Shown: positions 9,252 through 17,562 of the stretch, one piece after another
How the letters are laid out: each line of letters opens with the position of its first letter
Numbering within the stretch: position 1 is the first letter of the stretch
Source: Candidatus Zhuqueibacterota bacterium
GTDB taxonomy: Bacteria > Zhuqueibacterota > Zhuqueibacteria > Thermofontimicrobiales > Sulfurfontimicrobiaceae
Direction: 5' to 3'
Length of the DNA stretch: 64,000 nt
NCBI GenBank assembly: GCA_016927835.1
Contig: JAFGMA010000171.1
Coordinates: forward strand, 1 to 64,000
Notes under the pieces: generated by a model
What the model was told of the DNA's origin: nothing
The model's database searches: none
Seen by the model: only the letters and a program-made list of their open reading frames with translations
Position numbers and translations under genes: made by a program

Positions 9252-9818
9252 ATGCAGCAGCAATATTTTCAAACTTCCGATGAATGGCGGAACTGGCTTC
9301 AAGAGAATCATGCCAAAGAAAACAAGATTTGGCTGCTCTTTTATAAAAAAGAGACGGGAAAGCCTTCTATCGATTACGAATCGGCAGTGGAAGAAGCGCT
9401 ATGTTTCGGATGGATCGATAGCATCATCAAAAAAATAGATGACCAAAAATATGCCCGAAAATTCACTCCCAGAAAAGATGACAGCAACTGGTCCGAACTG
9501 AATAAAAAACGCGTTAAAAAATTAATCGCTTCAAACCGAATGACAGAGGTTGGCTTGGCAAAAATCAACATAGCGAAGAAGAATGGTCAATGGGATAAGC
9601 CGGACCGACCGAATATACCAGTAGAACTGCCACCTGACTTCCAACATGCACTGGAACAGAATCCAAAGGCGAATGAAAATTTCCAAAAGTTGGCGCTGAC
9701 CTATCAGAAGCATTATATTGGCTGGATTTCGATTGCCAAACGTCAGGAGACGAAAGAAAAGCGGATAAAAGAATCAATAGCGCTTCTCGAAAGAGGTGAG
9801 AAACTGGGGCTTAAATAG
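9252..9818 (+). CDS. YdeI/OmpD-associated family protein
   Basis: 188 aa; characteristic 'SIDYESAVEEALCFGWIDSIIKKIDDQKYARKFTPRKDDSNWSELNKKRVKKLI'. Confidence 0.88.
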   Translation: MQQQYFQTSDEWRNWLQENHAKENKIWLLFYKKETGKPSIDYESAVEEALCFGWIDSIIKKIDDQKYARKFTPRKDDSNWSELNKKRVKKLIASNRMTEVGLAKINIAKKNGQWDKPDRPNIPVELPPDFQHALEQNPKANENFQKLALTYQKHYIGWISIAKRQETKEKRIKESIALLERGEKLGLK

Positions 9819-13133: not shown

Positions 13134-13961
13134 ATGAAACCGGTTTGGAAAGGCAACATTGCACTGGGCAGCATCGAAATCGCTGTAAATCTGGTATCTG
13201 CAGTTTCCACTCGAAATCTGGCGTTGACATTGCTCCATCAACCATGTGCGTCCAAAATCAAACATAAGCGAGTTTGTCCCCTGCATGGCGACGTCCCGGC
13301 AAACGAGATTATCAAGGCTTATTTTTATGAGCAGGATAAATACATTCCGCTTGACGGACATGATTTTGCCAGTATCGAGCTGGGTACTCAGAAATCAATT
13401 TGTTTATCGAAATTTGTAGATATTGAGGCGATTGAGCCTATTTATTTCAATAAAACATATTATTGTATTCCTGATGGACATATTGCCGCAGAAAAATATG
13501 CGCTGTTACGCAACGCGCTAAAAAGGAAGCGGAAAATTGGGATTGCCCAGATAACATACAATCGAAAAGAATCAATCGTTGCACTGTGGCAAAGGAAACG
13601 GGCGATCGCATTATCCACGCTGCATTATGAGAATGAAATACTTCCGCTTTCAGGCTTCGAAGTATTGCAGACGAGTGCACCGCGCAGCCGCACTCAATTT
13701 GATGAGATTGACAAATTAATCGAAATCGCAATTGACCGATTTAATCCGAGGCAGTTCCGGGATCAATTTTTTATTCAATTGATGGAATTGATCAGACAAA
13801 AAATCGATTCATCAAAACATGAAAAATTTTCACAAGCAAAAGCCGAATCGATGGATTCAATCAAATCAGTTGGCAGCAAAAAGCAACGAACAGTGGTGAA
13901 CGCCAGAAAGAGCATGGCTAAAGTTGCCGAACCCGAACTGGCGGATACCGGGAGTGTTTGA
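13134..13961 (+). CDS. ku: Ku family DNA end-binding protein (bacterial NHEJ)
   Basis: 275 aa; Ku pattern 'WKGNIALGSIEIAVNLVSAV', 'CPLHGDVPANEIIKAYFYEQDKYIPL', 'FVDIEAIEPIYFNKTYYCIPDGHIAAEKYALLRNAL', 'KRKIGIAQITYNRKESIVAL', 'LSTLHYENEI'. Confidence 0.88.
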   Translation: MKPVWKGNIALGSIEIAVNLVSAVSTRNLALTLLHQPCASKIKHKRVCPLHGDVPANEIIKAYFYEQDKYIPLDGHDFASIELGTQKSICLSKFVDIEAIEPIYFNKTYYCIPDGHIAAEKYALLRNALKRKRKIGIAQITYNRKESIVALWQRKRAIALSTLHYENEILPLSGFEVLQTSAPRSRTQFDEIDKLIEIAIDRFNPRQFRDQFFIQLMELIRQKIDSSKHEKFSQAKAESMDSIKSVGSKKQRTVVNARKSMAKVAEPELADTGSV

Positions 13962-15076
13962 GCGTTCTGATGAAACCAGTTGAGATAAATTCGCCGCAAG
14001 TGAAAGTGATGACATCGAAGACCAACGTTTTCATGAATCAATCGGTTGTTTTTACCGGGCAGCTTTCTTCGATGACCCGCAAGGAAGCGCAGAACCTGAC
14101 ACGACAGCTTGGTGGAGCCACGCCCCCCGCTTTGGCTCGCAACACGACGTACCTGGTCATCGGAAATGGGGGATATCTAAAAAAAATTACCAGAAGTCAG
14201 AAACTCAAACGCGCCGAAGAACTGAACGAGAAGGGTGCGAAAATAAATATTATTTCTGAAAATTTATTCCTGGAGATGGTCGGTCTTGATACAGAATATA
14301 AGCTTGAAAATAAATACTATGTGCTCTCCGACATTATCAAACTCTATCCCAACCTGCGCAACGACAGAATTCGTTATTTTCAGCGATGGGGATTGCTGAA
14401 ACCTGCTATCAAAACCAATACGAGTCAGTATTTTGAATTCAAAGATTTGTTGATTTTTCGAAAAATCGATGGATATTTGAAACAGGGAAAACCTCTGTTG
14501 GCAATCGCAAAAGGGCTTCGTAACCAAATTGCGCCGATAAAGCAACTCAGGCTGCCTTTCGAGGAGGAGCTTCCCAGGGGCAGAATTTTGGAATTCAGGC
14601 AACCATCGGCACCGCAAAAAAGCGTCGAAGAATGGTACGATATCGGTTACGAAAATGACACAACTCCCGAGACGTATGACAAAGCGATTGATGCATATAA
14701 AAACGCATTGAAACTAGATCCGAATTTCGTGCCCGCTGCGATCAACCTGGGGAATATTTATTATGAAAAGGGCGAAAGGGAAAAGGCGCGCGATTTGTAT
14801 CTGCACGCGCTGAAGCTGGAACCTCATAACTATAAAATATTCTTCAATCTGGGCAATCTCTACGATGATTTGAATGATTTTTCAACTGCGTTATCGTATT
14901 TCAATCAGGCGATTCAACAGCAGCCGCTCTATGCCGATGCGCATTTTAATATCGCAATCGTTTATGAAAAAATTGGCATGAAGCAGGAAGCGCAAAAACA
15001 CTGGAAACTATATTTGAAAATCGATAGCTGCGGTGAGTGGGCAGAAATTGCCAGAGAGCATTTGAAGGAATCATAG
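13958..15076 (+). CDS. BRCT + MerR-like HTH + TPR fusion protein, translationally coupled to Ku
   Basis: 372 aa (TTG start at 13958 or ATG at 13970); BRCT-like 'NQSVVFTGQLSSMTRKEAQNLTRQLGGATPPALARNTTYLVIG'; MerR-like 'YYVLSDIIKLYPNLRNDRIRYFQRWGLLKP...YFEFKDLLIFRKIDGYLKQGK'; three or more TPR units ('AAINLGNIYYEKGEREKARDLYLHALKLEP'). Confidence 0.85.
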   Translation: MSVLMKPVEINSPQVKVMTSKTNVFMNQSVVFTGQLSSMTRKEAQNLTRQLGGATPPALARNTTYLVIGNGGYLKKITRSQKLKRAEELNEKGAKINIISENLFLEMVGLDTEYKLENKYYVLSDIIKLYPNLRNDRIRYFQRWGLLKPAIKTNTSQYFEFKDLLIFRKIDGYLKQGKPLLAIAKGLRNQIAPIKQLRLPFEEELPRGRILEFRQPSAPQKSVEEWYDIGYENDTTPETYDKAIDAYKNALKLDPNFVPAAINLGNIYYEKGEREKARDLYLHALKLEPHNYKIFFNLGNLYDDLNDFSTALSYFNQAIQQQPLYADAHFNIAIVYEKIGMKQEAQKHWKLYLKIDSCGEWAEIAREHLKES

Positions 15077-15339: not shown

Positions 15340-17562
15340 ATGAAAACAAATACCAAATTACATATAATCAGTTTGTTCGTATTGCTATTTCTTTTCATGC
15401 AATTCCAGCCGGCACAAAGTTTGGCTTGCACAGGCAAAATCAGCGGTGAGATAACTTACGACGGAGATCTGGCAGAATCGATCGTTGTGATGGCAGTCAG
15501 AATTCCGCCGACACCGGAAAAGCTGTATTATGCGACAAAACTTGAATCACCCGGACCGTATGAAATCTGCGACCTCCCGGAAGGCATCTATGTTGTGAGC
15601 GCCTTTATGGACGTCGACGGGAGCGAAGGACCGAATCCGGGAGAACCTGTCGGGCTTTTCATGGAATTCATCATGATCGAAGGCGGTTCTGAATTTGAAA
15701 ACGCGAATATCAGTTTGCAGGAACTGCCGGCAGGAATGGGATCCATCTCTGGCAAAATCAATTATTTCGGAAATAAAACCGGACCGGTGAAAGTCATCGC
15801 GATTGGGCTTTCGTATACACCGTTCAATTACACAATGGTCGATCTCTCAGTCAATAATTCATTCACTATCGATAACCTGATGACCGGCAGCTATATGCTC
15901 TTCGCTTATCTCGATGTGAATCGCGACGGGCTGCCCTGGCTCAATGAACCGTTCGGGGCGGAGACTGATTTGATTTTTGTCATGGACGGAGCCGATACGC
16001 CGAATCAAACGATTACGCTGATCGATCCCGAATCGCATTCCGGCTCGATATCGGGGCAGATCACTTACGATGGCACGCGTTCGGGTCCGGTGTACGTAAC
16101 CGCCATGGGTTTGACATTTACGCCGATGATGACAACCCGCTTAAATAGCGGCGAAACTGAATTCCAACTGCTGAAGCTGGCGCAGGGTGACTATGGCGTG
16201 ATGGCGTTTATTGATGTGAACGGAGACATGCGCCCCAATGCAACGGAACCCATGGGATATTTTACAGACGGTTTTGTGACGGTCACAGAAGGTTCCGAAA
16301 CCGCCGGGATTCATATAAAGCTCATCGATCCGCCGGTGGGGCAGGGAGTTGTCAAAGGAACAATTACCTGTGACTTTTTCAGCCTTGGCAAACCAAATAC
16401 GTGCCACAATATCGTGGTTCAGGCGATGGGGCTTTCGGAAACACCGTTGGTGTCTACTAAAATCACTGACTACGGTGAATATGAATTGGCTGGATTAACG
16501 ACCGGGCTGTATTTCATAATTGCTTACGAGGATATGAACGATAATGGGCTGTACGATCTTACGGAACCGATCGGCTTATTCCAGGGCAATCCGGTCATCA
16601 TCATAGAGCAATGGCAACGCAACGATGTTGACATTGCGATTCAGGATCCGACCACAGCGACCGGATCGCTTTCCGGGACTATCACGTACGAAGGACCACG
16701 AAGCGGCGCAATTCATGTATATACCATCGGATTGTCGCACACGCCATTCCAAAGTCAGGTTATCAACGAACCCGGAGCATATAAATTTACCGATTTGGCG
16801 TTGGGCGTCTATTATGTGATGGCATATATGGATGCCGATAGCGACGGTAAGTACGATATCGGGGAACCGCTGGCATTTTATACCGGTGTTGCTACGGTTG
16901 TTGGCGGATTCGAAAAACAGGGTGTTGATTTAACGCTGTACGACAAAGGCACGGGTTCGATTTCGGGCAATGTGGTTTACGATGGCGAAGAGTCGGGCAA
17001 AATTTACGTGGGTGCTTTCGGATTGTCGAATACGCCTATCGCCAAGATTTCACTGGATACACCGGGAGCTTACACCCTCGACGGACTCTGCAAGGGACGT
17101 TTTGTGGCGTGGGCATTTATGGATTTGAACGGGGATAAGCTGCCGGGCTTGTACGAACCGTTCGCCATCACCAGCCAGGTTATTCATGTCGAGGACAGCC
17201 TCGAAACCGCAAACGTTAACCTTGTATTAAGCACATTCTATCCCACCGATGTTGATGATCAACTGGCGATGGAGGCGATGCCACAGCGATTCCAATTGAT
17301 GCAAAACTTCCCGAATCCCTTTAATTCCAGTACGCTCATCCAATATCAGCTTCCTGACGCATCGCGGGTAACGCTGCGAATTTTCAACATGCTTGGCAGA
17401 GAGATTCGAACGATGGTGCTGGGACAAAACGCAGCGGGTACACATCAACTTGCCTGGGATGCCAGGAGCAATAGCGGTGAGGAAGTCGCCAGCGGTTTCT
17501 ACCTGTATCAAATCGAAGCCGGTGAATTTAAAGCGATGAAAAAATTGCTGCTGGTGCGTTAA
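15340..17562 (+). CDS. Secreted repeat protein with C-terminal T9SS type A-like sorting domain
   Basis: 740 aa; signal peptide; six ~100-aa repeats starting 'GSISGxITYDG' and ending with DxNxDG-like loops; C-terminus 'FQLMQNFPNPFNSSTLIQYQLPDASRVTLRIFNMLG...ASGFYLYQIEAGEFKAMKKLLLVR'. Confidence 0.82.
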   Translation: MKTNTKLHIISLFVLLFLFMQFQPAQSLACTGKISGEITYDGDLAESIVVMAVRIPPTPEKLYYATKLESPGPYEICDLPEGIYVVSAFMDVDGSEGPNPGEPVGLFMEFIMIEGGSEFENANISLQELPAGMGSISGKINYFGNKTGPVKVIAIGLSYTPFNYTMVDLSVNNSFTIDNLMTGSYMLFAYLDVNRDGLPWLNEPFGAETDLIFVMDGADTPNQTITLIDPESHSGSISGQITYDGTRSGPVYVTAMGLTFTPMMTTRLNSGETEFQLLKLAQGDYGVMAFIDVNGDMRPNATEPMGYFTDGFVTVTEGSETAGIHIKLIDPPVGQGVVKGTITCDFFSLGKPNTCHNIVVQAMGLSETPLVSTKITDYGEYELAGLTTGLYFIIAYEDMNDNGLYDLTEPIGLFQGNPVIIIEQWQRNDVDIAIQDPTTATGSLSGTITYEGPRSGAIHVYTIGLSHTPFQSQVINEPGAYKFTDLALGVYYVMAYMDADSDGKYDIGEPLAFYTGVATVVGGFEKQGVDLTLYDKGTGSISGNVVYDGEESGKIYVGAFGLSNTPIAKISLDTPGAYTLDGLCKGRFVAWAFMDLNGDKLPGLYEPFAITSQVIHVEDSLETANVNLVLSTFYPTDVDDQLAMEAMPQRFQLMQNFPNPFNSSTLIQYQLPDASRVTLRIFNMLGREIRTMVLGQNAAGTHQLAWDARSNSGEEVASGFYLYQIEAGEFKAMKKLLLVR

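Follow-up and report, generated by a model that had tools for sequence, protein, structure and literature searches.

A LigD-less clade of Ku proteins without the LigD-recruiting segment, linked to a BRCT, winged-helix and TPR protein in candidate division KSB1

The best described bacterial non-homologous end joining (NHEJ) systems pair Ku with LigD. B. subtilis Ku cannot recruit LigD initially unless it has its minimal C-terminal domain (PMC13201618); in M. tuberculosis LigD is also bound by the Ku core (PMC9638933). Ku-only states have been called rare, with cross-talk to LigA suggested (Sharda et al. 2020, PMC7719229), and approximately 90% of the Ku-only cases in that survey are from Bacillus and Fictibacillus. 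The window analyzed here, a 64,000 nt stretch of contig C316 from an assembly of 7.58 Mb (completeness 93%, contamination 5%), carries a ku gene followed downstream by a gene for a protein with a BRCT domain, a MerR-type winged helix, a linker and a TPR array, named BMT in this work. A Ku without LigD is usually regarded as rare and perhaps non-functional; here it is kept throughout a clade, which makes its role testable. In this clade the Ku core is retained, LigD and the LigD-recruiting segment are gone, and ku stays by the BMT gene despite turnover of the flanking genes. The pair may tentatively be read as a LigD-independent Ku module in which BMT acts as a non-catalytic, clamp-tethered repair adaptor with LigA as the likely sealer, a reading held with somewhat more doubt than conviction.

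The ku gene (13134..13961, + strand) encodes a divergent Ku of 275 aa, in agreement with the original prediction; it scores 210 bits against TIGR02772 (cut-off 150) and 120 bits against Pfam Ku. In the Ku tree it forms one clade with the Ku of eight other BMT genomes (support 98/95), and topology testing rejects a tree that groups it with LigD-type Ku (p-AU 0.0035), although its long end branch (2.44) leaves room for long-branch effects. An alignment of 58 Ku sequences combined with a motif scan shows that 9/9 BMT-type Ku lack the minimal C-terminal segment for LigD recruitment, [VI][DN][LI]M..L[RK].S[LI], which is present in every complete LigD-type KSB1 or acidobacterial Ku compared; 47 Ku pass the strict pattern, L157 has the segment with one change, and L055 is a fragment. 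The tail that lacks the segment in the window Ku is encoded at 13809..13958 (+). The C-terminal tail of BMT-type Ku is basic and carries another short motif, KRGMEKAPP-like; the pattern common to these Ku, [KR][RK]x[ML][EA]K[AV] (L046-L053 and the window), takes the place of the LigD-recruiting segment of other Ku. Its form in the window, ARKSMAKVAEP (13902..13934, +), is a candidate new partner-binding segment.

No end-joining ligase had been seen in the window, and the same now applies to the whole assembly, where LigD ligase and polymerase were not found and LigA was the only ligase recovered. The genome search gave no match to the LigD ligase model TIGR02779 at E 1e-3 in an assembly that is 93% complete; TIGR02779 matches over cut-off are absent from all nine Ku+BMT genomes, the 100%-complete relatives agreeing with the window genome, and no match to the LigD polymerase model TIGR02778 occurs among the ten BMT genomes. 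Both models (TIGR02779 over cut-off) are matched in 6/6 Ku genomes without BMT. Among the Ku genomes LigD and BMT thus never occur together (9 against 6, Fisher p 2e-4); these genomes are kin, so the exclusion is best counted as approximately one contrast between two Ku clades. LigA is found in 16/16 genomes tested, including the window's assembly; no other ligase is common to all Ku+BMT genomes, which makes the NAD-dependent LigA the most likely sealer. A 540-550 aa ATP-dependent DNA ligase that falls below the LigD cut-off is encoded in G075, G076 and G081 (L062, L063, L065), on a contig other than that of ku; it could perform the sealing in those genomes, which counts against a role for LigA there.

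The absence of LigD and the loss of the minimal C-terminal segment are also compatible with a Ku that joins no ends, and instead protects them or steers recombination, with BMT loading or unloading Ku at forks through the clamp. The window Ku is fast-evolving, as under relaxed constraint, which favors this alternative and counts against a LigD-independent module; Ku on its own, a rare state, could also interfere with recombination (PMC7719229). Against it, intact Ku is retained in nine genomes, and LigA can join some ends with no other ligase, according to work cited in PMC7719229; a non-joining Ku is considered improbable.

The BMT gene (+ strand) encodes 368 aa from the ATG at 13970 (13970..15076), in an ORF that opens with TTG at 13958 (372 aa). 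The original prediction had noted a 4 nt overlap between this TTG and the ku stop codon (TGA, 13959); the overlap is indeed present, however it is specific to the window, and the ATG codons at 13970 and 14009 are no less likely as starts, leaving the true start uncertain. The predicted combination of BRCT, MerR-like and TPR regions is borne out, as all three pass Pfam cut-offs and AlphaFold and Foldseek support each fold: BRCT scores 35.2 bits (cut-off 21.3), MerR_1 scores 23.4 bits (cut-off 21.6), and four TPR_2 repeats are detected (E 9e-23). The AlphaFold model, built with 17 homologues (mean pLDDT 84.6), comprises a BRCT domain, a winged helix, a linker predicted to be disordered (residues 189-212, pLDDT below 50) and a TPR array. 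A Foldseek search with the full model returned only TPR proteins among the 50 matches listed, and the N-terminal half was therefore modeled alone; this half matches the RFC1 BRCT (E 1e-5) and, more weakly, the TnrA MerR-type winged helix (TnrA-DNA complex 4r22, E 4e-3). Designed PPR proteins appeared as BRCT relatives in single-sequence PDB matches; they were rejected as repeat noise that disappears in the profile search. A literature search found no relevant paper on the combination of BRCT, MerR and TPR, and BMT, which the KSB1 lineage has in common with Acidobacteriota, would seem to be a clamp-linked repair protein not yet catalogued.

The BRCT domain (residues 17-107; 14018..14290) is of the RFC1/LigA type; it is found in 17/17 homologues, and its best profile match is the RFC1 BRCT 2k6g (E 7e-10). 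BMT T29, G30 and R37 align with the T, G and R that contact the phosphate in RFC1; the threonine is replaced by alanine in one of the 17 homologues (L080). The MerR-type winged helix (residues 108-188; 14291..14533) is closest by profile search to GlnR/TnrA (E 7e-4). The TPR array (residues 219-366; 14624..15067) is modeled with pLDDT above 90, and its best structural matches are designed and OGT TPR structures.

A complete MerR_1-type winged helix, with the regulators GlnR and TnrA as its closest solved relatives, raises the question of whether BMT is a transcription regulator that uses the winged helix on promoters and the TPR and BRCT regions to sense partners, controlling ku or other damage genes. 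The original prediction had suggested a damage-responsive regulator, which is possible yet less favored: BMT has no MerR-type C-terminal effector or dimerization segment, MerR_1 scores are weak (detected in 6/17 members, best E 1.4e-8), and the RFC1/LigA-type BRCT together with a clamp-like motif points toward replication or repair. A regulatory role is thus considered quite unlikely.

The clamp-like motif and the loss of the Ku segment, both absent from the original prediction, are the most informative features of the locus. The motif, QLRLPF in the window (14543..14560), lies in the disordered linker and is a candidate β-clamp-binding site; Q192 and F197 are the sole invariant positions across residues 184-216 in 17/17 homologues, with hydrophobic residues at 193 and 195. 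The pattern Q-[LVI]-x-[LIF]-x-F occurs in all 22 first homologues and in all 28 of the Acidobacteriota survey, BRCT-less ones included. QLRLPF and QVALEF fit the β-clamp hexapeptide Q-L-x-L-x-L/F; known clamp motifs include QLxLF and QLxLxL (PMC4564189), and the clamp has been co-crystallized with peptides such as SEQVELEFD (Pol III α) and ERQLVLGL (Pol IV) (PMC4976356). The E. coli Pol III α peptide is nearly the same as SAQVALEFEE of the homologue L036. Binding of LigA to the clamp is reported for H. pylori; there is evidence from earlier work for E. coli, and none for M. tuberculosis (PMC4976356).

The phylum sample consists of 83 genomes (candidate division KSB1/Caldithrix-like), ten of which encode BMT: G000 (the window genome) and G001 of family f1, and G075-G082 of family f13. 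Ku is found in 15/83, namely nine of the ten BMT genomes, five f5 genomes and G016; its presence in 9/10 BMT genomes against 6/73 others gives a Fisher p of 1e-7, not corrected for kinship. The recurrent ku adjacency called for by the original prediction is observed across genera, and within the phylum both the ku association and the BRCT and MerR assignments hold: six genomes (G000, G075-G079) have the two genes side by side in the same orientation, one (G081) has genes for a dodecin and a proline racemase in between, and two (G080, G082) have them unlinked on different contigs. G001, which is 100% complete, has BMT without Ku, and no ku remnant was found beside its BMT gene. The flanks of the pair differ among g1, g41, g42 and g43; the upstream neighbor is oxidoreductase-like (judged by eye) in the window, a glutamate dehydrogenase gene in G079, and a sigma-54 regulator gene in G078, and this variation by genus indicates that the linkage outlasts its surroundings. 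Downstream, at 15340-17562 of the window, is a large secreted repeat protein; judged by eye, its C-terminus resembles a sorting domain for type IX secretion. In G001, too, BMT is followed by a homologue (L032 363-2570).

Translational coupling of ku and BMT, as originally proposed, does not extend to the family. Directly adjacent relatives have intergenic gaps of approximately 24-140 nt, and in G075-G078 a terminator-like hairpin lies between the genes (L037 ~9500-9540, L039 9757-9783, L038), which is absent in the window and in G079; coupling is therefore only a local possibility. The hairpin is a possible attenuator, or may mark separate transcription; like the lack of linkage in G080 and G082, it counts against a joint Ku module.

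Outside the phylum, a scan of named genome contigs recovers the same architecture in Acidobacteriota at 34-39% identity; 28 genomes in a sample of 297 carry BMT or a BRCT-less MerR-linker-TPR form. No ku was found beside acidobacterial BMT genes in the flanks examined, so a universal ku-BMT link is rejected; in a set of twelve, glucokinase and DEAD helicase genes recur as neighbors. Ku is present in 17/28 of these genomes against 83/269 others (p 0.003, uncorrected), and BMT often coexists with Ku and LigD. Since many acidobacterial BMT genomes hold LigD, a replacement of LigD by BMT everywhere is also rejected. The BRCT-less proteins (L125-L127, L130, L132-L136) carry the same GQLxFDF motif, which suggests that BRCT is an add-on to an older MerR-linker-TPR core; some acidobacterial BMT have in-frame insertions within a BRCT loop (L088 8028-9323, L084 868-2019). 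Viral contigs yielded no BMT relatives, plasmid and phage collections gave BRCT matches only (mostly annotated as exonuclease or DnaQ-type), and PADLOC returned TPR noise only.

As acidobacterial BMT is not by ku and often occurs with LigD, the ancestral role of the protein is not Ku-specific, and was probably Ku-independent, clamp-linked repair. BMT may then serve repair or replication in general, as a clamp-associated factor that has no direct part in Ku function; in KSB1 it would lie beside ku through inherited synteny of two housekeeping repair genes. The wide distribution in Acidobacteriota without ku linkage, the retention of BMT without Ku in G001, and the terminator-like hairpin separating the two genes in g41 agree with such a factor; the persistence of ku-BMT while flanks change between genera, and the strong co-occurrence of BMT with the LigD-less Ku clade, speak against it, and this explanation is judged unlikely. 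The originally proposed Ku partner scaffold is supported in part: BMT looks like a repair scaffold, but Acidobacteriota and G001 argue against a role tied only to Ku.

The data show gene content, linkage, the absence of LigD and of the recruiting segment of Ku, the domain folds and the conservation of the motif, the genomic facts being firm; BMT is tied to Ku function genetically, within one phylum, and from these we infer a mechanism for the preferred LigD-independent Ku module. The RFC1/LigA-type BRCT would bind DNA ends or nicks at the 5'-phosphate and the winged helix would bind duplex DNA, while the linker motif would dock on the β sliding clamp; the TPR array would engage another protein, perhaps through the tail of Ku, and LigA would seal the ends held by Ku and BMT. 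This full scheme of end joining, in which a segment-less Ku and a clamp-tethered BRCT/winged-helix/TPR adaptor hand ends to NAD-dependent LigA, is unlikely as a whole. The clade has kept Ku, whose LigD-recruiting segment was lost in parallel with LigD, and which is genetically coupled to a specific new partner.

Among described proteins, RFC1 and LigA provide the best profile and fold matches for the BMT BRCT and have the T-G-x7-R signature in common with it; however, BMT has no ATPase, clamp-loader or ligase domain, and its BRCT is fused to a winged helix and TPR. The winged-helix fold is that of the MerR-family regulators GlnR and TnrA; these follow an N-terminal HTH with a dimerization helix and an effector domain, whereas the HTH of BMT is internal, between the BRCT and the disordered linker with TPR, and no effector-binding C-terminus follows. 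The β-clamp clients Pol IV (QLVLGL) and Pol III α (QVELEF) resemble BMT in the Q-φ-x-φ-x-F motif of its disordered linker; unlike them BMT lacks a polymerase or nuclease domain, and its clamp binding is predicted from the motif. When compared to the canonical NHEJ of B. subtilis (YkoV/LigD) and M. tuberculosis, the window Ku has the same core fold, its profile alignment spanning residues 1-225 of B. subtilis Ku (9vnq), but the genome lacks LigD ligase and polymerase, the Ku lacks the minimal C-terminal segment, and a BMT gene is adjacent. The Ku-only genomes of Sharda et al. (2020, PMC7719229) have Ku without LigD, as in the ku-BMT clade; their text makes no mention of KSB1, Calditrichota or BRCT and describes no accessory gene, unlike the ku-BMT pair, which may be an unrecognized way of using Ku.
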